From Owenia fusiformis (taxonomy: Eukaryota > Annelida > Polychaeta > Sabellida > Oweniidae), in NCBI GenBank assembly GCA_903813345.2, contig CAIIXF020000009.1, positions 18,067,759 to 18,131,758 of the forward strand: a DNA stretch of 64,000 nt. The letters are read 5' to 3'. Below are positions 8,901 to 55,018 of this stretch, piece after piece; position 1 is the stretch's first letter, and each line of letters begins with the position of its first letter. A program made the position numbers and the translations under genes. Below the pieces are notes generated by a model, which made no database searches, was not told where the DNA came from, and saw nothing but the letters and a program-made list of their open reading frames with translations.

Positions 8901-9343
8901 TCTTGCCTGATCCCAACACTGATCTACTTCAGTCTAGGGGAATTCTGGGCGAATTGCATTGCATACAAAACATATAAAGCATTAAACAGTTCAGATCTTG
9001 TCAATGAACTGAGGGATTGGGGTGATCAGATCAATAAATGATTTCTCTCATAGAATAGAAATTGTCCTTTTATTTGATACGATAAGACCAATGTAAATGC
9101 TATCTATTGCCCCATGTATACACATCTTGGATAACCCAGGTATGACGTTTTCATATGTGTCATTGAAACTGGTACGAAGTGAGTATATGCATACCAAAGA
9201 TCTATCATCCAGTTATCATACCCAAGTTGGAGAGCCAAACAGGTCTGAACCTTTGGCACAATGAGACAATTTGTTAAATGTGACCCTTAGTGCAATATAT
9301 TCCCTTAGCACAATCAGAGGTGTCACGGTCATTTGGTACATTG
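5938..9343. other. AT-rich non-coding stretch, no gene recognised
   Basis: Only short chance ORFs (about 70 codons or fewer) occur here. No splice-flanked coding block, RNA gene or clear transposon end was seen. Confidence 0.45.
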
Positions 9344-9704
9344 TGACCCCTCTGCACAATGTGACCCCTCTGCAAAATTTGACCACTTTGCACAATGTGA
9401 CCCCTCTGCACAATGTGACCCCTCTGCACAATGTGACCCCTCTTCACGATGTGACCCCTCTGCACAATGTGACCCCTCTGCACAATGTGACCCCTCTTCA
9501 CGATGTGACCCCTCTTCACGATGTGACCCCTCTGCACAATGTGACCCCTCTGCACAATGTGACCCCTCTGCACAATGTGACCCCTCTACACATTGTGACC
9601 CCTCTGCACAATATGACCCCTCTGCACAATGTGACCCCTCTGCACGATGTGACCCCTCTTCACGATGTGACCCCTCTGCATAATGTGACCCCTCTACATA
9701 ATGT
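9344..9704. repeat. 18-bp minisatellite
   Basis: Twenty tandem 18-bp units of the form GACCCCTCTGCACAATGT, with CTTCACGATG and CTACACATTG variants. The period is a multiple of three and the unit lacks stops in several frames on both strands, so ORF-like runs (for example repeats of HNVTPL) appear. They have no other support as genes. Confidence 0.97.
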
Positions 9705-15746: not shown

Positions 15747-18430
15747 AAGGCTTGAGTAGAATTATCAATGAAAACTGAATAAAGAATCAGAAACGGGAAA
15801 ACAGAGCCATGATTAAACAAATGAAGCAAGGATCTTTAAAACAAAAATCCATCCATTTTCAATCCATTTAGTTTGATTTAGTCCCTTTAAAGAGAGTCTC
15901 ATTGTAATTCTTCACTTCTTTTTGTTATACAACTGGTTATATGTCAAGAAAGATGACAAAAACAGAAATAGTCATTTTTTAGAAATGGTTATGTAATATG
16001 TAGCCTTTTTGCTCTTATCTTGTTCTACTAGTGGCATGTGTTGTGGTCTATGCATGTTAGCAGCCAGGTATTTAAATACATGTAATAATCATAATTACAA
16101 CAATTAACATAAGAACTAGTAACACCTGCATATGAGGAGGTTGAGGCCTATGCTACTCTTCAGAGTTGCCTTATACTAAATAGATAAATATCTTACTGTT
16201 TTATATAGAAAATGGTGTTATATAGAGAAGAGTGGGGGTTGAAGGAAATCAAACAAATCAGCTGTATTTTATGGGAAAGTAGGGGAGGCATAAAGAGAAG
16301 GAGAGAGGGCTAGAGATTGGGAGGGTACACAATTTTGCTTAAATGGAGTGTTATTACCATCCTTGGCCCAAGGGTATTTAAATTCTTCCGTAGCTGCTAT
16401 GGCAGTAAAGCACAATCCTTTTACTTCTATATTACCAAGGATAAGAGCAAACAACATGAAGGGGGCCTTGGTATATCTGGGGAGGGGCACAGGACATTGT
16501 GGTCTTAATTTCTCTGGAATTGATTAGAATAGTAGAGAGCTATTACAAAGATTTATAAAGTCTTACAGCAGGTTTCAATGACTTTCTAAGCCTCATTTAC
16601 AGCCATATGTTGTCTCCTCAGGTCTGCTTTGTTAACATCATGTAACAGCATTGACAGTGAGATAACATAAGTTGTAATGATGCCTTGAGGCATGGTCACT
16701 TAGGTGACCATTTCAACACTCTAAACTTAGATGGACAGAGTATATTCTGAGTTATCTTAACAATGGTCTTGCATCAAAACACTGGGATCCTAGATGATGG
16801 GGGGGGGGGTCACTCTCACAAGTTTAGATAGGAAGAGGAGCTCTGTTAGATCAAAATGATATTGCTGAGCTTGATTAGATAGCATTTCAGCCTACCATTC
16901 TATAATAGGTCAATCTAGAAGTAGAAAGTACCTCCCTGGGGAAATGCAGGAAGAGGTCATCAGGGTAAACCATTATAACCAAGGATATTTTCCCTGGAGA
17001 AGGGTAGGTTTAGAAGTCATCAAGATGGAAAAGCTATATCTATGCATCTCTTCTTGGAGGTTCATTTTCAAAATCAGTGGCAAATCCTATAAAGTAGTTT
17101 CCTCCTCTTCACCTTATTGCTTCCAAGGTACTTTGAAAGTGGACAAAACAAGAAGATATTTACCAAATTGAGAGAAACATCTAAGCCATGCAATCGGGTC
17201 ATTATAATTAGCAGTTTATAATGTTTAGCAATCAAGTAGGCTGTTAATATAGCATTTAACCACTAGCTTACTGATTAATTACATCTCCATGGAGATTTTC
17301 ATCTTCAGAACATCCCTTCCAATATAATACATTGTAACAACCCTTTATAAGAGAACAACTTTATCTATACTCTTTATTGATCAACTTTTAATTTTATTTC
17401 ATTCATCAGAAAACATCAATATATATTTCGAACTTAATTCATTTCACATTCATTCAAATACAGACAAAAGCAGCAACATATTCATTTGAGATGGTTAAGA
17501 TTCCATCAGCCCTGATACTATAAATCTGTTTGTTATAACCAGAGGGAAGTTTGGCTGAATAGAATCAGGGTAACCTATTCAAGGAGTACTCAGTTCAAAG
17601 ATGCATGAAATGTACTAAAAGATCCATCTCCCCTTGCATGCAGCAACATTCTGAGGCTCGTGAGAAGAATTTTTTATAGATCATTTGAACAATGAACTAA
17701 ACGAAGGATGTGAAATAGGAATGAATACTTTAAAAGATATTATATCAATTTCATAAATTTGTTAAACCATATATTACTTTAAAAGGTATTCAATATTCTT
17801 TGAAGCGATATTTGTTATACACTGTAGTTCTATTCAGTTTTGCAACTTATAAATACTTTTTTGTCCATTCAGAAACCAATTACAACATTGGTTTTATATA
17901 AAAAATAATAATAGTTATCCATTTAAGATTTGAGGGAAATAGACGCCCTGGCTATATCCTAATACCCCTATTGACATATATCACATCTAATGTGAACAAA
18001 CCAAAAGTTGTTAAACTTTAAAATAATATCTTTCAATAGAAAATACCAAACATACACATTGCTGTGTAAAAGTTCAAAAACAACACAAAGAAACTTTTGA
18101 TTCCTGATCAAATATAACATATTTAAGTGGTTATATCTACACATAAGGAGTCCCACTGGATATGCTTAAAGCATTCAACAAATGCTCCATCTAAACTGCT
18201 TTAAAAATAAATCAAATAAATGAAATATGAGCTGTTACTGCAACCTCTCAATTTGGCCTCAACTTTTTTTTCTATATTACAGAATGTGTTTTGAAAAGAA
18301 ATAACAAGCTCTCCTGAAAATGTTAGAACATGATTGATAAAGTTGTCTTTCAAGTATGCCATGAAAGAAAATCAGGTATTTTAGCAGAGTAAAGCAAGAC
18401 ATTAGTAATGGGAAGATTATAGTGAATATG
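15747..18430. other. non-coding stretch, no gene recognised
   Basis: Contains an 11-base poly-G run near 16800 and short chance ORFs only. Confidence 0.45.
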
Positions 18431-19035
18431 TACAAGACATGACTAGGTATGGGGAGATAATCATGCACACATACAAGACATGACTAGAGATGGGTAGATA
18501 ATAGTACACATATGCAAGACATGACTAGGTATGGGGAGATAATCATGCACACATACAAGACATGACTAGAGATGGGTAGATAATAGTACATATATGCAAG
18601 ACATGACTAGGTATGGGGAGATAATCATGCACACATACAAGACATGACTAGAGATGGGTAGATAATAGTACATATATGCAAGACATGACTAGGTATGGGG
18701 AGATAATCATGCACACATACAAGACATGACTAGAGATGGGTAGATAATAGTACACATATGCAAGACATGACTAGGTATGGGGAGATAATCATGCACACAT
18801 ACAAGACATGACTAGAGATGGGTAGATAATAGTACACATATGCAAGACATGACTAGGTATGGGGAGATAATCATGCACACATACAAGACATGACTAGAGA
18901 TGGGTAGATAATAGTACACATATGCAAGACATGACTAGGTATGGGGAGATAATCATGCACACATACAAGACATGACTAGAGATGGGTAGATAATAGTACA
19001 TATATGCAAGACATGACTAGGAATTGGGAGATATT
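18431..19035. repeat. 82-bp dimeric minisatellite (two alternating 41-bp subunits)
   Basis: About seven copies of an 82-bp unit made of two related 41-bp halves, one with ACTAGGTATGGGGAGATAAT and the other with ACTAGAGATGGGTAGATAAT. Strict alternation shows that a diverged dimer was amplified rather than a monomer. Stop codons make it non-coding. Confidence 0.96.
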
Positions 19036-32011: not shown

Positions 32012-32310
32012 TACCTCAAAGTATGTGTGCTACCTTAAAGTATGTGTGCTACCTTAAAGTATGTGTGCTACCTTAAAGTATGTGTGCTACCTTAAAGTAT
32101 GTGTGCTACATTAAAGTATGTGTGCTACCTTAAAGTATGTGTGCTACCTCAAAGTATATGTGCTACATTAAAGTATGTGTGCTACCTCAAAGTATGTGTG
32201 CTACCTCAAAGTATATGTGCTACCTTAAAGTATGTGTGCTAGCTTAAAGTATATGTGCTACCTTAAAGTATGTGTGCTACCTTAAAGTATGTGTGCTACC
32301 TTAAAGTATA
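32012..32310. repeat. 19-bp minisatellite
   Basis: About 15.7 tandem units of TACCTTAAAGTATGTGTGC with T/C and G/A variants. The period is not a multiple of three and there is no coding frame. Confidence 0.96.
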
Positions 32311-35220
32311 GAAATGAGCTTGCATCATCTTTCGTCTCTTGGAACAATGAAAACAATGAAGTAGGACATGAAATTGATCTCACTAAGGAAAGAAGTTTTA
32401 TCTATCCAACTGCCTTATGTGCATATAAACTAATACAACAAGAATCCCATTCTTCATTAAAATAGTGATACATACTCAAATAACTCCAAACCCTACCAAT
32501 AGGGAGAAGCACTGAGAAGGGTCTGTAAACCAAATAATTAATAATATCAAACGATTTTTAAATCTCAGCTTGAAAATCTTTTTATGATATTACCTATAAG
32601 TACACTATTTGCACATGAACTTCAAAGGATTCTATAATCAAAGTATACAGAGCTTTACACTAGGAGAATCCATGAATTAGTAATAAAAAGATCAATGTTT
32701 CAAATGTCAATGATTCACTTTAAGAGAATATTAGAGCTGCTAGATTACTCAAATGTCAAGTTAGTAGAAGAGACTCCCTATTGCTACGCATTCCTGGATT
32801 CTGTGAATGCGGAGCATTTACTTTTCAACAAAGTTGACAATCTTCTGAAAAACAAAATAGTTTGATTTTTCGAATAGACACAGTGTAGTCTGTGAAAGTA
32901 TGTATAAGTTGTATCTGTTAAAACCATTAAACATGCCTTGGTAAATGAAAAAGACTGATATGGGCACTACTATTTTTTAAAATCATTCCTTGTCAGATTG
33001 ATTACTGATAAAAGGAATGATGTAAATTTTTGTGACCACAGAATAGTTTGGATTCCTAATGAATATGAACTGATGAATGGAACTATGGTACATGTAGTTC
33101 TCAATGAATTTATGAGGAGTATCTTACACAGTAACTTAAACATTATCACATATTAAATGAGTACAATCTGATTAATATATTAGTAAGTGATTAATACATT
33201 GGTCTATTAAATCTGTGTTCATATGTAATCAATGCAAGTTGACTTGTGTTTTATATGTTCTCTTGCATTGTGGACCAATAAAGCATATCCTATTTGCTAC
33301 ACTAATCAATATATCAAGAGGAAAATGACATTGCTATGGCAATATTAAAGACTTCTAAGCTGAAGCATTGGATCTCTGTCACTGTTTTCCCCTTACAGAT
33401 ATTTTCATGAAAATACATGAAAAACAAATGTATAATCACAAAATTGGAAAACAAGTGATGGAATAAGAATGAGCTTATTGTCTTAACCATGAAAATGGCA
33501 TTGCTGTTTATTTTATGAAAGGCAATGTAGAATATAATGGCTGTGGTAAATTATTTGAAAAGGTGTAGAAAATATCCAGTAATTGATGTGTTTAATTTAC
33601 GAAAGCTATTGCAGTATAATACTCTATTATAGAATGTTCTAATCTTTACTTCCCGCAATCAAAATAACTAAAGTTGTCCTTTTTTACTCTATTTATTTCT
33701 TTACATTGTCCCAGTAGCCATATTGCTCCTCAAAAATATTGCTAATTACAATTTTTAACTGTTTTTCAGAAAAGTGATTTCATAAAAGACGATTTCAGTG
33801 CCTTTATTAAAATATTATCACTGGTTAGAGGACAAACCTTTCTCTCACCTCCCCTCATTGCACTTGGATCCTTTATGTATGTTTTAATCTTGAAGATGAA
33901 TTCATTTGGGAATCTCCCAAATAGCACTGGTTATTCTTTACATATTTTCAACTGAATCGTTCTCTTTCTGTAAAAGGAACTCAGCAAACATTTGATAATA
34001 TGATGCATTTAGCAGTTACAGGCCAATTTAGAAATAAATATAAAGCACTGCACCATACAAATGTTAAGTATATGAGAATTATGAAAATTAACTCATGCAC
34101 CACCATTATCATTTGATTAAGTGTTAAACTAACGACTATTTACATTTAATTCTTGCTCTTTTTGATCGATCTATCATGTTACAAACAAACTCAATTTGTG
34201 GAGACACAATGACTTGCATATTATATCTGCTGAAAAATCTATGCTGTAAATTACATCAATTATTAATGAATCAATAAACAAAGTACTATAGACATAGTCT
34301 GTTTATATATGTCACACTACAATTTCAAATAAGTAACATACAAATTAATGTGGAACATGACCTCTATTCTATGTATCATGATTTTACCATACTTTGGAAC
34401 CGTTACCTCCGCGTTACCTGTGGCACAACATCTGTGCTTTGGTTTTATTTACAATGCTTATTAATACAGTGCTGCTCTCTTTTAATAAATAATTCTGTGA
34501 AAATGAATATTATACAGTCTAAAAGCTATAACTCTCATCTGAAATAACCCTAAAATATTTATGAAGTGTAAATCCTTCTTTTCTCTAATTATCGAACCTC
34601 ATTCATGTTGAAAGTGAAAATTGGATTCTTTTTAAAATTTAAAAAGTGTGGGTAGATTTTTCAAGCTGGAACTTCTAATACCGCTTACAAGGTAAATAAA
34701 GAATTACTTCCACCGTTAATATTTTCAGAAAGGTGTATGTCCAAATCTAATGACTGCGGAAGTCACATATTATGAATTTAAACTATTTCAGATTTATTCA
34801 GGATGAGATTACAGGTATTGGTCCTAATAATAAATATCTTCCTATCTTATATTGATGGAAGATAGAATAGTGTAAGTATAATAGATTGATCCAATGCTTT
34901 CTATTTGATGTATCATCTCCTTAAGCCTGCTCCTGTTTCCGCAACAATCACCCTTGAGTACAATTTTCATTTATTTTTGAATACAGATTATACATATCCT
35001 TTTACAGGATAATCAAAAAATAAAAATACACTTAGTTGAAATTATGCTCACAATGTTTTTTTAATTACATTTATTCAAATTGATTGAAACTACATGTATT
35101 TACCAATAAGGCATATTTTGGCAAGAAGCTTGGATGATTTCAGAGAATGTCTCACTATTGCATCCCGATACGTCTGCTAGCATGAACTGATGCATTATGG
35201 GAAATAAAATGACTACTTAC
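32311..35220. other. intronic stretch of the ZMIZ gene, nothing else recognised
   Basis: AT-rich sequence downstream (minus strand) of the last ZMIZ exon found. I looked for the next conserved ZMIZ segment (in vertebrates it continues with a W-C-E-E-type helix and a leucine run) and did not see it here. Confidence 0.45.
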
Positions 35221-35326
35221 CAGCTGACTTGGAAGTGAATTTGTCTCTGTGGGCAGCACATACTGCAAGCAATCTATAGCCAAGTTCAAGGTCATACCCC
35301 GGTTGAGACGCAACTCGACTGACTAC
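35221..35326 (-). CDS. ZMIZ1/2 orthologue, third coding exon
   Basis: Minus-strand exon of 106 bp: acceptor TTTTTTCAG before 35326, donor GCTG|GTAAG after 35221. It starts in phase 0 and ends in phase 1. It encodes [20 protein letters not shown] followed by [15 protein letters not shown], which closely matches the N-terminal domain of vertebrate ZMIZ1/ZMIZ2 as I remember it. ZMIZ proteins are PIAS-like nuclear co-activators with an SP-RING (MIZ) finger. Their N-terminal helical, TPR-like domain binds partners such as Notch1 in vertebrates. The next exon is not found to the left, so the following intron is probably longer than 35 kb or the exon lies outside the window. Confidence 0.92.
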
Positions 35327-36720
35327 CTGAAAAAATTAAAGAAACGATGGTTGCGTATAAGAAGCTGTTTATTTAATTTTAGATGTCAAGAAAGAATATA
35401 ATTCATCTGAGGAAAGAGAAGAATGTCACTCAACAGAGGAAAGGGTTTGGCCCACAGTCTCCTTACCCCCAAATCTGTATCAAATCTCACAAACCAGGAG
35501 GAACATATATGGGGTATAGGGTATGTTTAAGAAGTAGAACACCTCAAGATTCAATTGACACAATACGATGATGTAAGACGATTGATACTTGTCTTGGAAT
35601 ATTGTTCTGTTTAAAAACAAACAAGATTACGGATGTTATAAATCAATATGCCGTAAGATTAATAGCAAAACGCAAGTAAAAGTACTTATTAAATCAAATT
35701 ATCTGATTTAACTTAGAGAGTGTCTTCTAGGAAGGGACAATTGATTTATTATATATCTTAAAATGATCAATTATAAATTATAGCCTCACAATTTCATTTC
35801 ACCCCCTTGATTCATAGACCAATGGACCGTACTGACTATAAATGCAATAATCCATTATTGAATAAAAACCTTACTTATGCGGGTTAATTTATAGATTAAT
35901 ATATCACCATTAATAACCACTTAGAAATGCAGCCATGTATTAGGTAATAATGCCTTATCAGGGCATCTTATTCCCCCTTTACACCAGAAGAATTAATTTG
36001 TTAGTGGTTTTATGATAGAATAAACGTGAAAGGATTTCTTAAAAATACTTAAGATAAAATGTCTAGCGTCTTACAGGCATAAGAGAATGTTATACAGCTA
36101 TTTTTCTTCTATATCGTAATTATTATTACTCTATTAAGGTACGTTCACACCAATGGCGAATGCCACGCTTTAAATCGGCGAGCAAAGCGCCGTCATTTTT
36201 GTCATTTTTCTTCATACCAACGGCGCTTTGATGGCGCTTTAGAGCGGCTTGTAAAGCGGCACCAAAGCGTAACAAAGTTTGATTAAAGCGTCGGGGTCGT
36301 AATAGGTCGTAGAAAAGCTCAGAGTAAAACGGGATATTCGGCAAGAGCGCCAAAAAATTTTAAACTCTTAAAAAATTTTGGGCGCTCTGTTACGAATCGA
36401 TTAAGCGCCGAGAGCGTATCAAAGCTTAACAAACCGTAACAAAGCTCAGAAAAACTTGATCCAAAGCGTAGGAAAGCTTAACATAGCTCTAAAAGGTTCC
36501 TCACGCTTTGATCCCGCTTTGATCAGGCTTTGTTACGCTTGAAATCACGCTTTGAAAAGCTTTGATAAGCATTATTACGCTTTGATGCGATTATGACGCT
36601 TTAAATCAGGCTCTGATATGATTGCAAAACTCTGTTGTGCATTGTTACGCTCTGTTAAGCTCTGTCACGCATTGGAAAATGTCGAGATCGCCGATTCCAT
36701 GCCGCTTTTGATCCAATGAC

Positions 36721-42683: not shown

Positions 42684-44255
42684 ATGGAAACAATCGTAGG
42701 AGAATGGGTGGGAGTGTCCATTGAGGGTCTTAAGGAACTGATGGATGCAATGAGTGAGTGGAATCTAAATTATGACTCTCCCTTCATCTTTTACTATAAA
42801 TCTTTTAATATAAATTTGTACAAAATGTTTTTTTATATTTATATATTGTTTGAGTATCAGGGCTAGTTTGAGTATTTCTAACTGTGTTGTGTCATCGTGA
42901 AAATGATGAAAGAAACTTGAAAGTGACACAATCATTTATTGTTTTCAACAAATACTACATACTATGTCAAGACATTTGTATGACTGCCTCCTTGATTAAA
43001 TATCATAAAATGATGTTAAATTCAATAGCAGGATACAGAATTGACATTCTCTGTTTTGTTAAACCAACAGACCTGTCAGCTGAATTTCAAGAAAAGGCAG
43101 CAAAAGATACAGCAGGTGGTAAAGCTACCATACGAAAGGATGGTGACTCTTGGATAATTGGTACTGGAAATGCGAAGGGCATGAAGGAGCATAAATTCCA
43201 GCTTAACAGTGAATATGACTACAAAACTTCAGATGGTCGTGAAGCAAAGGTATCCACCTTTTGTCATACAGAACTGTATTTCCATTTGCTTTGACAATTG
43301 TTTTTCTTGAATATCTATTAGAAATATTGGACAATGTCTTGAAATAAATGATAAAAAGAAAAAATTAGCTTTCCTTATTTAACACCCTGTATATTTCCAA
43401 CAGAACAATAGAAATGTAAGTTTTGTCAATTTCTAATTATTTTGGCCAGTTAATGTTCTGAAAAAAATTCCAAATCAGGATATACGTATTGAGAACATTT
43501 GGAATTGTGATTTTAAGTAGTGGTTTATTTTGACATCATATATATTGAATATGTATTGCAGGTGACTGTCACTGAACAAGGCCCCAAGGTTGTTGAGACA
43601 CAGAAACATCCCAGTCTTGATACAATCGTAACATATGAAATTGTAGATGGAAATCTAGTGCTGGTAAGAGGATACATTAAACATTTTGACAAATTTAATT
43701 TCAAGACTTGCTAACATCAAGAGATATATAAGTCAAATCATCTTTCTCACTTTGCCACATGTTTTTAAGTCAACACGTTCACCTTTTTACAACCGAAAGT
43801 GACAGACATATATGTCACAACATGATGCAATGCCATTAGGGTTGTGAAAAGGTGAAAGTGTTGACTTAAAAACAAGTGGCAAAGTGAGAACGATCATCCT
43901 TCAAGATCGGTCCTTCACTGCTTTCATAGCAGATCATGTAATGTAATGCAATGAATTACTCTTGGGCCAAGGATGAGAAAGATGATTTGACTTCATTTCA
44001 TTTATTATTGGTCATGAAAATTCTCATCAAGCAGATTTAACTATGACAAAACTGGTGGACAAAACTGATTCTGATGCAGTTGAGAGCTTTCATTAGAATA
44101 TCTACAGAAGTAGAAAGCGTCAAAATTGTTCTCATTTCAAACATTGCTTAACTCCAGCAATATGAATATTTATACATTTTCTCTCATTTATCTTCCAGAG
44201 TATTACAGAATGTAAGACCAATGTTACAGCCAAAGTTACATACAAGAAAGCTTAA
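42684..44255 (+). CDS. intracellular fatty-acid-binding protein (FABP/CRABP family), four exons
   Basis: Exons 42684-42753, 43071-43249, 43562-43663 and 44199-44255 are separated by introns of 317, 312 and 535 bp, all GT..AG. They join to 135 codons with intron phases 1, 0 and 0. The exon lengths (70, 179, 102, 57) and phases are those of the classical FABP gene. Residues 1-23 (METIVGEWVGVSIEGLKELM, then DAM) carry the G-x-W start motif. Later strands include GGKATIRKDGDSW, KEHKFQLNSEYDYKTSDGRE, DTIVTYEIVDGNLVL and the last strand TNVTAKVTYKKA. FABPs form a cytosolic ten-strand barrel that binds fatty acids or retinoids. The C-terminal R-x-Y that usually contacts the ligand carboxylate appears as V-T-Y, so ligand choice may differ. 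The gene sits inside a ZMIZ intron on the opposite strand. A possible AATAAA is at 44893. Confidence 0.93.
43730..43993. mobile_element. nested hairpin element in FABP intron 3
   Basis: The outer inverted repeat is a perfect 20-bp match: AAGTCAAATCATCTTTCTCA at 43730-43749 and its reverse complement at 43974-43993. Inside, 43745-43889 is a long hairpin with arms of about 49 bp (TCTCACTTTGCCACATGTTT at the left, matched near 43870-43889) around a small loop region containing GTGACAGACATATATGTCAC. The layout suggests a palindromic MITE. It occupies half of the intron and does not touch the splice sites. Confidence 0.75.
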
Positions 44256-45710: not shown

Positions 45711-46316
45711 ATGAACACTGATTGTTTGTAGTTTAGTTAAGTGTAATGATCCTGATTGTTTGTAGTTTAGTTAAGTGTAATGATCCTGATTGTTTGTAGT
45801 TAAGTTAAGTGTAATGATCCTGATTGTTTGTAGTTTAGTTAAGTGTAATGAACACTGATTGTTTGTAGTTTAGTTAAGTGTGATGAACACTGATTGTTTG
45901 TAGTTTAGTTAAGTGTAATGATCCTGATTGTTTGTAGTTTAGTTAAGTGTAATGATCCTGATTGTTTGTAGTTAAGTTAAGTGTAATGATCCTGATTGTT
46001 TGTAGTTTAGTTAAGTGTAATGAACACTGATTGTTTGTAGTTTAGTTAAGTGTGATGAACACTGACTGTTTGTAGTTTAGTTAAGTGTAATGATCCTGAT
46101 TGTTTGTAGTTTAGTTAAGTGTAATGATCCTGATTGTTTGTAGTTTAGTTAAGTGTAATGATCCTGATTGTTTGTAGTTTAGTTAAGTGTAATGAACACT
46201 GATTGTTTATAGTTTAATTAAGTGTAATGATCCTGATTGTTTGTAGTTTAGTTAAGTGTAATGAACACTGATTGTTTATAGTTTAGTTAAGTGTAATGAT
46301 CCTGATTGTTTGTAGT
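45711..46316. repeat. 34/35-bp minisatellite
   Basis: About 17 tandem units centred on TGATTGTTTGTAGTTTAGTT. They alternate between a 34-bp form with AATGATCC and a 35-bp form with AATGAACAC. The order of the two forms partly recurs, so blocks of units were duplicated. Non-coding; lies in the ZMIZ intron. Confidence 0.95.
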
Positions 46317-47442
46317 TGAATTGATACTTTGTATTCTAGCTAATTGTTTTTTGCAGCATCTCTTTATAAACTGATTATTTGTAATCTAGCTGGGTGTCTA
46401 CATAACCTTTAAGTATCTACCAAGTAAATTGGACCAACAATTTCAAACAAACATTTTGTACTATTAAAAGGTAATCACACTCCCCCACCCAAGTCATAAT
46501 AGGCTAAGTGATATCTTCTGTTTTATCATTTCAACGTTTGTTTTCATTCTTTTTGGAATAATACAGGTGGAAAACAATTTCTTTAAAGTAAATTCACACA
46601 TACATATCTAACTCGAGTAAAAAACTAAGCAGCTAAACAATGCCAGTATAAAAGGCAGAAGATCCCCGGAGAAGATCAAGGCAATCCTAGTATTACATAC
46701 TGTGATGAAATATCAAGTAGTCATACGTTGAGCATTGTATTCCAACCGCCAAAGGTTATCAATTAAATGGGTGTATTTGACTGACTCAATCATGGTGTCT
46801 GTGGAGAGATATATGTGATGAGAATTTGGAAGGCATTCTTTTGCACATAATAAGATATCCATATTTTACAAAATAATATTTTAAGATAAAACAGTTTATG
46901 TGCTATGCATTCTGGGTAATGATCTCACATATCATAAAGTGCATTCTTGGTAAAGACCTCCTGCATTATTAAAGAGAACTCGGTGACTCCTCAACAACAG
47001 ATACGAAGTCCAATGTTAAAGTTATCTTAACGCATCTTGAGCTATAAAGTCTAAAAACAAGCAATAATACATTTCACACCTTATCTTATAAAAAAAACGT
47101 TATATTAAATTCAAATCAATTCACAACCTTTAAACTCAAAAGTTATTTTAAGAAGGCATATTTTTCTAATCTTCCTCTATTAATAAAATTAAGCATTCCT
47201 ATGATCATGTAACAAATATCACCAAGTCCAAATGAAACTGAAATGAATCTGCGAAAAAAGCACTGTTAAAAACAGGTATTTTATACCAATTTTTCATAAA
47301 GGCTATCAATAATCGTCAAAATACAAGCTGCCGTCTGCTGAAAAGGTTATAAAAATAGTAGAAGGTAGACTAGTATATATTGAGCATCTAGATTTGGCTA
47401 TTATTTTGAAGAGTGCATTGATCATATAATGCCTATAGAGTA

Positions 47443-48360: not shown

Positions 48361-48870
48361 ATGTGAGGTAAACATACAGGTGCACATATAAGAGGTACAC
48401 ATTGCATAAGGTTTACATATGTGAGGTACAATTACATAAGGCTCACATATATGAGGTGCATATATATAAGGTTCACATATATGAGGTGTACATACATAAG
48501 GTTCACATATATGAGGTGCACATACATAAGGTTCACATATATGAGGTGTACATACATAAGGTTCACATATATGAGGTGCACATACATAAGGTTCACATAT
48601 ATGAGGTGTACATACATAAGGTTCACATATATGAGGTGTACATACATAAGGTTCACATATATGAGGTGCACATACATAAGGTTCACATATATGAGGTATA
48701 TATACATAAGGTTCACATATATGAGGTGTACATATATAAGGTTCACATAAATGAGGTGCACATACATAAGGTTCATGTATAAGAGATGCATATATATAAG
48801 TTCAGATATGTGAGGTTCAATTACATATGGTTCACATATATAAGAGGTACACATACACAAGGTTCACATA
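48361..48870. repeat. 30-bp minisatellite
   Basis: About 16 units of 30 bp built on ATAAGGTTCACATATATGAGG plus a GTGCACATAC or GTGTACATAC end; the regular core is at about 48437-48770. Degenerate GAGGTACA/GAGGTAAAC motifs extend on both sides (about 48140-48980). The period is a multiple of three and gives long open frames on both strands that are not credible genes. The array ends about 40-150 bases below ZMIZ exon 49013-49126, on its 3' intron side. Confidence 0.93.
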
Positions 48871-49012
48871 ACACATACACGCAAAAGCTAAGTATATATG
48901 GACACATACACCGGATATATATACACATGAGGTACACATGAAACATATATAAATGAGGTTCACATAAAGCATATTACATAAATAAATGAGGTAATCAATA
49001 AAGATTACTTAC

Positions 49013-49126
49013 TGTGAGGCAAGATATTAGAGCCTGTTCAAATGGACGTTGGAAGGCACGAGTATCAGAACACCACTCTAGTAATTCACGCGCAGCATTC
49101 TGGAAGCCTGTTGGTGTCCCCAAGTG
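49013..49126 (-). CDS. ZMIZ1/2 orthologue, second coding exon
   Basis: Minus-strand exon of 114 bp: acceptor TTTTCCTGTTCCAG before 49126, donor CTCACA|GTAAGT after 49013. Phase 0 at both ends, 38 codons. It encodes [20 protein letters not shown] followed by [18 protein letters not shown], which aligns with the human ZMIZ1 segment between its first helix and VVSRV as I recall it. It joins in frame to exon 35221-35326. Either of two upstream exons (A, 54895-55018; B, 51566-51621) can supply the start, because both end in phase 0 with ..CIKQ. Confidence 0.93.
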
Positions 49127-51565
49127 CTGGAACAGGAAAACCACACATTTCAAAAGTACATTAAAAATTATTGTATCATAATGATAGTAAGGTCCCTTCT
49201 CTACAGTTTATTCTCTGTTTAAGCAGGATTTGTTTTTAATTTCAAAAGAACCAAGTAATTTAATAGTATAAATATGATATGATGGTAGCTTGGCCATATT
49301 TCATCTCTTAATCTCATTTCAATCATATTGTTTAATATTTAATTTTTAGCCCCTCTTTTTTCTCTATATCATTTATCGTTTAAGTTTTCCACAACTGCTT
49401 CTTTTCTGTACAATCTTGTATCAGCATTCCCTACAACACGTTCTTTGACTCGACCCCTCATAGCAATTGATGAAACAATGACGTCATATATACTTTACAA
49501 AACAGGTTGATATATTCTATAACCTTTTCACACAATGAAGATTAAGTCAGGATAGGAGTTGTTTTGACATGAAAACATCCTGCACTAAGATGTAAAAAGA
49601 CTAAATCAACTATGAACGGGATATGTAGAAACATTAGTTTCGAAGTGTTATATACTACTAGGAGGTCATTGATCATATTTAGAGGCTCCATCAAGATTTC
49701 ATTCTCTAGCATCCTCAGGGTATCATATCTAATGGGAGGGTCTACACATGTTAGCCAATGAGGCCCCATAAACGTTTCAAACCGCTTGTTCTGAGCCTGG
49801 TGGTCGACCCTCATTGAGTCAATGCTACCATGAGCAAACTCATGATAGGATGGGGTAAAGTTTATACTTTGCAACTTTTCACCTCCTGTTTCCCATCCTT
49901 CCCACCCTTCATTATAAAAACCCCTCCCTCTATAATAAACTAGAAGATGTCATCTGGAGTAATCTGCGTTTCCTTCCCAGCACATGCTCTTAATACACAG
50001 AACTTGAAAATGAGAGCAAATAAGTAATTACGCATCTAGAAACGATGAAAGACAAAAGAACAATGCAATTTCATTCATAAATGAATTCGTTGTAGAGTAG
50101 GTGGGGATTAATGTATTGGATTACTCTACCATGTTAAGTACTACACATTAATTATACTACAGTTAAGCAATCACACATATATTCTCAGCTACATGTTTAC
50201 AATATCCATATATGCCACAGCTTGAATTTCTAAGGTATGAAGCTTCAAATCAAACTGGTAAGCTTGGAGTTTGGAGAGATACATTCCTCGCATCTTTTCA
50301 AGATTGTCACTGTCAATCCCATTGTAAGGTATAATACAAACATGTTTTACTGTAGAATACAAACATGTTTTACTGTAGAATACAAACATGTTTTACTGTA
50401 GAATACAAACATGTTTTAATGTAGAATACAAACATGATTTACTGTATATGTAATATATATTGCAAATTGTAATAGATCATAATAACATGGTGAAATATAC
50501 TAGTATAAGACTTGGTTTTGGTATTGCATTATATTGTAACCAGACCATACATTACATCACTATATTATATAGTACTGTAAGCATTGCATTATTGTATCAT
50601 ACAACATTGCAATATTATCCAACATTGCATAACTGTATACATTTTCACTATGTTACATAATTGCAGTAAATGATGGAAGCGTTCCTTATTGGAACACACT
50701 GTAATGCTTTATCCTTTATTGCAATTATGTATACCATTCTGATACTTATAGCATCTTTCAGTTTCACCAGGTTGAGTTGAAATGAGATTTAATGGTTTAT
50801 CATCGTGACAATATACATGTAGTGTAGCAAAACAGGAAATTGTATTACATCAAATTAAATTAAAGTTATTATAACTATATTATATACAAAGCAGGTTATA
50901 TGTTTTATATTAGTCTCTGGGCATACATGTAGTTACATCATATTTAGAGCAAAACTAACTAATAAAAGAAAAATTAGCAAAATTAACAAAGAAACAAAGC
51001 ATGCACAGATTTGAATTCATAATATTTGATTAAAATAATTAAAATAATTTCTAAAATAATCACATGAATAAATATGTGTAAAATGTTTTGCTCTAAATCG
51101 GGAGCCCGAGTTAGACTTGGTTAAGGTTTTTCTCATATAATCTCTTGTAGTATAGTACCAGAATCAAATATGTTGTATAAATGTTTATATCTTGTTTAAT
51201 TGCCTCACTAAATTCTGCAAAAAATCATATATATATGTGACAATTCACATATACAAATAGGTTCTATTATATACTTAATGGAATTGGCATATTTCAAAAA
51301 TATTTTCTCTCATATTGTATATGCTGACATTTTGGGGGTTGACAAAATCTCCCATAAGACTTTGCCATTACTCCCTCCTCCTTAAAGATTTTTCAAGATT
51401 TTATTTTTTGTCTCTCAATTTTGGAATTTTGACTCTTGAATAGATTCTCACGAAAACTGGTACAATAAAGAAGCTATGTATTATCAAGGTTGATTCTGGT
51501 AGAACTATAACTAATCTAGAGATATAAGAGAAAGTAGTTATATAGTTATTTTTCATTCAATATAC
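49127..51565. other. ZMIZ intron sequence, no further exon supported
   Basis: Contains a 23-bp minisatellite at 50334-50446 and a TGACGTCA at 49479. A 110-codon minus-strand open frame (49542-49874) was examined and not accepted: it has no domain and no splice context. Confidence 0.45.
50334..50446. repeat. 23-bp short tandem array
   Basis: About five copies of a 23-bp unit starting ATACAAACATGTTTTACTGT, nearly identical. Confidence 0.95.
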
Positions 51566-51621
51566 CTGCTTTATACATTGTAATCTATCTCGAGTCTGTC
51601 CTATATATTGGTCCATAATAT
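51566..51621 (-). CDS. ZMIZ alternative first coding exon (exon B)
   Basis: Minus-strand exon of 56 bp: acceptor ATTTGCAG before 51621, donor AAGCAG|GTATAT after 51566. Five untranslated bases precede an ATG at 51616, which encodes 17 residues, MDQYIGQTRDRLQCIKQ. This aligns without gaps to the last 17 residues of exon A (VDRHIQQTIDRLLCIKQ), with the same phase-0 end. Splicing A to B would shift frame and stop quickly, so A and B must be mutually exclusive. B could be entered from a 5'UTR exon through its own acceptor. Selection seems to have kept the protein pattern, so I think it is functional, but only transcripts can show use. The donor is weaker than that of exon A. Confidence 0.72.
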
Positions 51622-54344: not shown

Positions 54345-54894
54345 TCTGGTCTAACCTATTTAATACATAGTAATCTGTCAATGGTCTGACTTAGTAATCT
54401 GTAAATGGTCTGACCTACCTATTCAATACAGAGTAATTTGTAAATGGTCTGACTTACCTATCTAATACAGAGTAATCTGTCAATGGTCTGACCAAGTAAT
54501 TTGTCAATGGTTTTACTTAGTGATCTGTCAATGGTCTGACTTCCCTATTTAATACATAGTAATCTGTCAATGGTCTGACTTAGTAATCTGTAAATGGTCT
54601 GACCTACCTATTCAATACAGAGTAATTTGTCAATGGTCTGACTTACCTATCTAATACATAGTAATCTGTCAATGGTTTGACTTAGTAATCTGTCAATGGT
54701 CTGACCTACCTATTTAACACATAATAATCTTTCATTGGTCTGACTTATAAATCTGTCAATGGTCTGACTAACCTATTTAATACATAGTAATCTGTCATTG
54801 GTCTGACTTACCTATTAAATACATAGTAATCTGTCATTGGTCTATTTTGATTTACTTATCTAATATACTGGAATCTCTTAATTGTCTGACTTAC
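54345..54894 (-). repeat. minisatellite made of ZMIZ exon-A/splice-donor copies
   Basis: About 15 units directly downstream (minus strand) of coding exon A, mostly 39 bp with some shortened 24-bp units. Read on the minus strand, a unit contains CAGACCATTGACAGATTACT, then ATGTATTAAATAG and GTAAGT. This is the last 33 bases of exon A followed by its donor. The main consistent difference is TAG instead of CAG before GT. Several units keep a good donor (TAGGTAAGTC), so the intron begins with an array of decoy donors. Variants such as TTTGTAAATGG show that the units have diverged for some time. Confidence 0.88.
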
Positions 54895-55018
54895 CTGTTT
54901 AATACATAGTAATCTGTCAATGGTCTGCTGAATGTGACGATCAACGTCATTCATTTTTCATTGATAGATGGGTCTGTGGTGCCTAAGGCATCATGGGATA
55001 TCAGTTGGAAACTCCCGT
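54895..55018 (-). CDS. ZMIZ1/2 orthologue, first coding exon (exon A)
   Basis: Minus-strand exon of 124 bp: acceptor ATTTGCAG before 55018, donor AAACAG|GTAAGTC after 54895. The first 64 bases are 5'UTR. The ATG at 54954 starts 20 codons, MNDVDRHIQQTIDRLLCIKQ, which match the human ZMIZ1 N-terminus (M-N-S-M-D-R-H-I-Q-Q-T..CIKQ, from memory) and continue in frame into exon 49013-49126. The end of this exon and its donor are the source, or a member, of the minisatellite at 54345-54894. The ATG is the only in-frame start in the exon. Confidence 0.93.

Follow-up and report, generated by a model that had tools for sequence, protein, structure and literature searches.

The intron that follows the first coding exon of the ZMIZ gene of Owenia fusiformis opens with a minisatellite, the units of which repeat the end of that exon together with its splice donor. 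This locus raises two questions: how did such an array arise, and do the donor-like sites that it places behind the true donor have any effect on splicing? We addressed both in a window of 64,000 nucleotides, the whole stretch of DNA analysed, and in the assembly to which it belongs. Positions without a contig name are those of the window, and a slash marks a splice boundary.

The Pfam profile Zmiz1_N matched the window at 49007-49132 and 35204-35365, on the same strand as the first coding exon (hereafter exon 1a), and a zf-MIZ match was found downstream, beyond the window (C9:18045052-18045195). Exon 1a (54895..55018, minus strand) begins at the acceptor TTTGCAG/ACGGG with a short part of the 5' UTR, has its ATG at 54954 and contains the coding sequence MNDVDRHIQQTIDRLLCIKQ. 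On the minus strand, positions 54927-54888 read CAGACCATTGACAGATTACTATGTATTAAACAG/GTAAGTC, which is where an earlier note on this DNA had placed the exon end. The donor CAG/GTAAGT is perfect (GTAAGT at 54889..54894, minus strand, donor G at 54894) and complementary to the 5' end of the genome's own U1. The intron after exon 1a is 5768 bases long. Exon 2 (49013..49126, minus strand; Zmiz1_N; end counted by hand) begins at 49126 in phase 0 and encodes 38 residues. The bounds of the exon 3 region (35204..35365, minus strand) are those of the profile match and include intron bases, since two stops lie inside. Joined, exons 1a, 2 and 3 scored 126.9 bits against Zmiz1_N which, with the zf-MIZ match, bore out the name ZMIZ given to the gene by the same note. 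Because exon 1a is conserved coding sequence, we take the array to have been copied from the exon. Elsewhere in the window, an open frame is present at 42872-43294 (plus strand), which we take to resemble part of a fatty-acid-binding-protein-like gene.

Sixteen units follow the donor inside the intron and extend to about 54349. Ten are long (39 bp, the first 44 bp) and are copies of the last 33 bases of exon 1a plus the donor; six are short (24 bp) and lack about 15 bases including the donor. The first intron unit (54844..54887, minus strand, 44 bp) is degenerate, with 11 differences from the exon in 39 positions, and it bears the first in-frame stop met on read-through. The remaining array (54349..54843, minus strand) is made of nine 39-bp units, at 54843, 54804, 54741, 54678, 54639, 54576, 54489, 54450 and 54387, and six 24-bp units, at 54765, 54702, 54600, 54537, 54513 and 54411. 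The long units other than the first differ from the exon at 2-6 positions, and the one at the far end (54387) at only 3. The nine matched the exon's 33 bases at 28-32/33 and the exon-adjacent unit at 23/33, whereas 200 single-base shuffles of the array reached 22/33 at most. The array noted earlier is thereby confirmed. The best match elsewhere in the window (25/33 at 51598) corresponds to a candidate exon described below. The earlier note had counted about 15 copies of the 33 bases plus GTAAGT. There are indeed 16 units, ten of them with exon bases and a donor region, but the six 24-bp units have no donor and GTAAGT is found in only three. TAG, said to replace CAG in most units, does so in all nine alignable long units. 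A 189-bp block within the array is repeated 1.8 times at 96% (TRF). A DNA search of the 498-Mb assembly, in which very common words were skipped, found the array once, at its own locus.

Units 54843, 54804 and 54741 carry AAT where the exon has ATT, and the degenerate unit 54887 has ATT. At this codon the Zmiz1_N profile favours Asn (AAT) over the exon's Ile by 4.7 bits, and also over five other residues tried. AAT is possibly a relic of an older exon codon, or due to chance; a single T-to-A change within the array would account for the three units equally well. Tandem arrays abound in this region: other minisatellites of the window lie at 1-1744, 9338-9704, 18408-19033, 32012-32309, 45711-46317 and 48372-48870, with units of 27, 18, 82, 19, 34 and 30 bp, respectively.

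A named class of repeats has these properties. Lancelet "mirages" are tandem repeats over exon-intron boundaries, with AG/GT in many units and an unstable length (PMC3087553, which credits the term to Canestro and co-workers 2002). We consider it likely, judging from the sequence, that the ZMIZ array is a nearly neutral minisatellite of the mirage type, with the original first donor in use. A tandem duplication of the last 33 bases of exon 1a and the donor would have landed at the very start of the intron, with amplification as the next step. The copy that multiplied would have been a founder with TAG for CAG, as suggested by the T common to the nine alignable long units. The deletion of about 15 bp seen in the sequence would have given rise to the donor-less 24-bp subtype, and the duplication of the 189-bp block, also visible, would have come later. 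The spliceosome probably takes the original donor, since it is the first in order and the strongest, and the array would leave as intron. If a later donor were taken now and then, the transcript would be frameshifted and, as predicted by translation, would reach a stop after 32 codons; nonsense-mediated decay would probably remove it. Some observations could speak against neutrality: six array sites outscore the best site in the remaining intron (see below), the unit copies carry exon sequence, a context that could help the array donors compete, and TAG in all nine alignable units weakens their donors and could reflect selection rather than one founder.

The ZMIZ array would have many junction-born counterparts in a genome rich in minisatellites. 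We searched the assembly for arrays in which YAGGTAAGT, AAGGTAAGT or MAGGTGAGT occurs three times or more at a spacing of 14-44 bases, and inspected the 5' ends of 34: 13 for YAGGTAAGT (drawn from the first 100 of 168 matches), 12 for AAGGTAAGT (from all 66) and 9 for MAGGTGAGT (from the first 100 of 205). Neighbouring clusters were pooled, that at C6:14337765 being left undivided, and for L028 and L029 the sequence read stops short of the true start. By eye, on the basis of an open frame, an acceptor and resemblance to named proteins, the array starts at an exon end in 25/34 (11, 7 and 7 in the three sets), and in 21 of these 25 no fewer than 12 exon bases recur in the unit. A minisatellite arising from an exon-intron junction, described as unusual in the earlier note, is therefore not so in this sample, and in lancelets such repeats bear a name of their own. 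The genes concerned include CRIPT, PP2A-B56, Tudor and Rieske. When 24 exon fragments were compared with Pfam, 11 matched at E <= 0.003. Nine of these were above the curated cut-off (NIF phosphatase, a family named Il2rg, TPR, B56, I-set, CRIPT, Got1/Sft2, Rieske and Tudor), and the kringle and P450 fragments were below it. The other 13/24 fragments had no Pfam match, and the same was true of 2/2 control frames; the fragment for L025 is the exon upstream of its array and not the one at the first donor. Two arrays, L019 (C6:14303381) and L020 (C6:14336194), are near-identical copies of one locus, with an exon piece of 17 residues that is too short for Pfam. Their units repeat the first 37 intron bases, and the exon donor is GTGAGT, yet the units carry GTAAGT. 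The array period is a multiple of three in only 5/25 exon-abutting arrays, and therefore no frame constraint is visible; in ZMIZ itself both unit lengths (39 and 24) can be divided by three, a point that could likewise speak against neutrality. With the reversed motif as a control (66 matches, 14 arrays), the unit overlapped an exon end in 0/14 arrays, judged by eye and more roughly than the donor arrays; two control arrays, L043 and L049, lay near exon-like frames. On the acceptor side, one strict acceptor pattern gave 0 matches and its reversed control 1, a search with little power. We infer that the class is the product of a minisatellite-rich genome in which some arrays start on a donor by chance and are tolerated as the original donor stays first.

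Donor motifs did not appear to seed arrays in general: YAGGTAAGT gave 168 matches and its reversed form 181, and AAGGTAAGT gave 66 in either orientation. MAGGTGAGT gave 205 matches against 59 for its reversed control, a comparison of matches, and an excess may exist for GTGAGT. Two loci (C1:6976937 and C1:11974150) supply 60 of the 100 MAGGTGAGT places listed, and among these places the higher number is largely due to them. Enrichment of arrays at real exon ends beyond the motif itself was weak. An open frame of at least 30 codons precedes the first donor in 28/34 arrays against 16/31 AAGGTAAGT sites (p 0.016; the 31 sites are those at the head of the list for contig C1), but some of these frames are kept open only by the repeats of the array itself, as in L029, and the numbers are small.

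Duplication could instead be directed by the donor itself, with copies anchored on the donor hexamer, for example through microhomology between GTAAGT and an exonic AAGT. We regard this as improbable. It would explain why the intron-only part of the unit is 7 bases or less in 11/18 exon-abutting arrays of the GTAAGT sets and why AAGT lies at the copy's left edge in some exons (L009, L027 and L030, the left edge of L030 being ambiguous). The same short intron-only part was found in only 1/7 arrays of the GTGAGT set, leaving copies that end right at the donor hexamer as a weak reading. For L065 the length of the intron-only part is overstated, since its period mode is twice its 53-bp unit. The number of arrays per site was similar for AAGGTAAGT (12/7130) and its reversed form (14/11815), or 1.7 and 1.2 per thousand.

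The nearly neutral reading of the ZMIZ array predicts little use of the later donors, and we scored each of them as the earlier note had suggested. Bits were obtained with a human donor matrix, and U1 pairing with the U1 5' end read from this genome. Of 42 U1 matches, four were read; these genes start ATACTTACCTGG, and canonical U1-donor pairing therefore applies. U1 snRNA genes form a tandem cluster at C9:23745153-23771556, mostly with a spacing of about 750 bp, and more copies lie on C1, C2, C5 and elsewhere on C9. The true donor, which precedes all units as the earlier note described, scored 8.77 bits with a U1 pairing of -12.1 kcal/mol, and no other site in the intron did as well. Of the 16 intron units, 8 keep AG/GT where the donor would lie: the long units carry GTAAGT (three), GTAGGT (three), GTTAGT (one), GTTAGA (one) and a broken GGAAGT (one), the first unit being degenerate. 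Every array site scored below the true donor. The three TAG/GTAAGT sites (one at 54806..54814, minus strand, with its donor G at 54811; the others with theirs at 54646 and 54457) reached 6.12 bits and -10.5 kcal/mol each, the three TAG/GTAGGT sites 4.58 bits and -10.2 kcal/mol, GTTAGT 2.09 bits and GTTAGA 0.45 bits. The best site in the remaining intron scored 4.11 bits, which six array sites (4.58 or 6.12) exceed.

Later donors were also expected to lead soon to a stop, and translation agreed: all eight GT donors, joined to exon 2, gave an identical 32-residue product and a frameshift. The product is the same because the first in-frame stop sits in the exon-adjacent unit, and therefore copy number past that unit cannot change it. 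The length-polymorphic short isoforms envisaged earlier are thus not supported. As far as can be read from the variants among the units, neither the donors nor the reading frame is under visible constraint. The donor 9-mer had 5 distinct variants in 9 sites and the rest of the units 11 in 30 (Fisher p 0.52), and variants over codon positions 1, 2 and 3 stood at 6:3:3, small numbers that leave out the degenerate unit 54887. The proposal that the array tunes splicing therefore found no support, donor positions being kept no better than other positions of the unit.

Beyond the array, in the same intron, we recognised a candidate second first coding exon of ZMIZ at 51566-51621. This candidate exon 1b (51566..51621, minus strand) reads TTATTTGCAG/ATATT ATG from its acceptor, TTATTTGCAG, and its coding sequence MDQYIGQTRDRLQCIKQ/GTATAT ends at the donor CAG/GTATAT, which is weak (0.96 bits). 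It ends in phase 0 as exon 1a does, and six of its last 11 codons differ from those of exon 1a, four of them synonymously. Joined to exons 2 and 3 it scored 124.8 bits against Zmiz1_N, compared with 103.4 for exons 2 and 3 alone and 126.9 with exon 1a; exon 1b thus adds 21.4 bits. Joining exon 1a to 1b and then to 2 gives an early stop, the pattern expected of mutually exclusive exons. From its sequence, exon 1b is probably a diverged duplicate serving as an alternative first coding exon, and the array is located between the two.

This arrangement gives some shape to a regulatory ladder, in which the later donors would be used to a meaningful extent, exon-1a transcripts would decay and copy number would tune the choice between 1a and 1b forms of ZMIZ. 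Six array sites with a U1 pairing of -10.2 to -10.5 kcal (three TAG/GTAAGT and three TAG/GTAGGT), a stop at codon 33 from each of the eight later donors, and a candidate exon 1b further down the intron that also ends in phase 0 are all consistent with it. However, the array donors vary as much as other unit positions, the donor is missing from six units and broken to GG in one long unit, and lancelet mirages apparently leave regular splicing undisturbed (PMC3087553). We therefore give such a ladder only a slim chance. Its stronger form, a length-variable rheostat in which later donors send exon-1a transcripts to decay and copy number sets the balance between the 1a and 1b N-termini, is very unlikely; if it were true, the junction-born donor ladders of this genome would be a stock of copy-number-dependent splicing switches.

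The human 6-16 (IFI6) minisatellite is placed beside an exon. It reportedly provides this interferon-induced gene with multiple splice donor sites, and the title of Turri, Cuin and Porter 1995 offers a precedent for several units of the ZMIZ array being genuine donors of stable alternative transcripts. Both arrays repeat a donor, directly after the exon in ZMIZ. Unlike 6-16, the ZMIZ unit holds 33 exon bases, and by translation all later donors lead to one frameshifted, truncated product of 32 residues, so that in-frame variants from this ATG are not expected; the unit donors are also weaker than the first. We find it hard to credit a 6-16-like role here. Least probable is an assembly artefact, in which the repeat would have been collapsed, expanded or wrongly joined. 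Misassembly is a known hazard of tandem arrays, and PMC3087553 describes one lancelet mirage as aberrantly assembled, but the ZMIZ units are individually distinct, come in two lengths and include a diverged unit beside the exon, and similar arrays are present at many unrelated genes.

The nearly neutral mirage reading can be set against what is described in lancelets, where mirages were found at Adh3 and the globins BflGb6 and BflGb9 (PMC3087553), with troponin C added and PGBD5 duplications likened to them (PMC3902484). In both cases the unit straddles an exon-intron boundary in a real gene (in ZMIZ it takes in 33 exon bases and the donor), and AG/GT is present in many but not all units (8/16 in ZMIZ). 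In both genomes the arrays recur at several genes, here at an exon end by eye in 25/34, with 21 re-using at least 12 exon bases. Mirages concern both the 5' and the 3' boundaries of introns, and our survey had power at the donor side only. Boundary units of mirages escape homogenisation; in ZMIZ the unit beside the exon has 11/39 differences from it and the unit at the far end (54387) only 3. The ZMIZ array also resembles the Rogers model, in which introns are gained when AG/GT proto-splice sites are duplicated in tandem (as told in PMC3087553), both being tandem duplications that carry a splice signal. Unlike in that model, no new intron is seen, and the copies lie inside an intron between coding exons that jointly match Zmiz1_N.

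The present arrays probably belong to another lineage than lancelets. The titles and abstracts searched, which leave most subscription papers outside their coverage, contained no report of a mirage-type class outside lancelets, and a genome-wide set of exon-donor mirage minisatellites in a genome other than lancelet is probably new. Collectively, the data suggest that minisatellites at exon boundaries, a class first given its name in lancelets, are also common in another genome, where they lie in conserved genes. Each array is a natural competition experiment among near-identical tandem donors. RNA reads could show how the cell picks the first, the last or the strongest of many 5' splice sites that resemble each other, and what share of new tandem duplications at donors can be tolerated.
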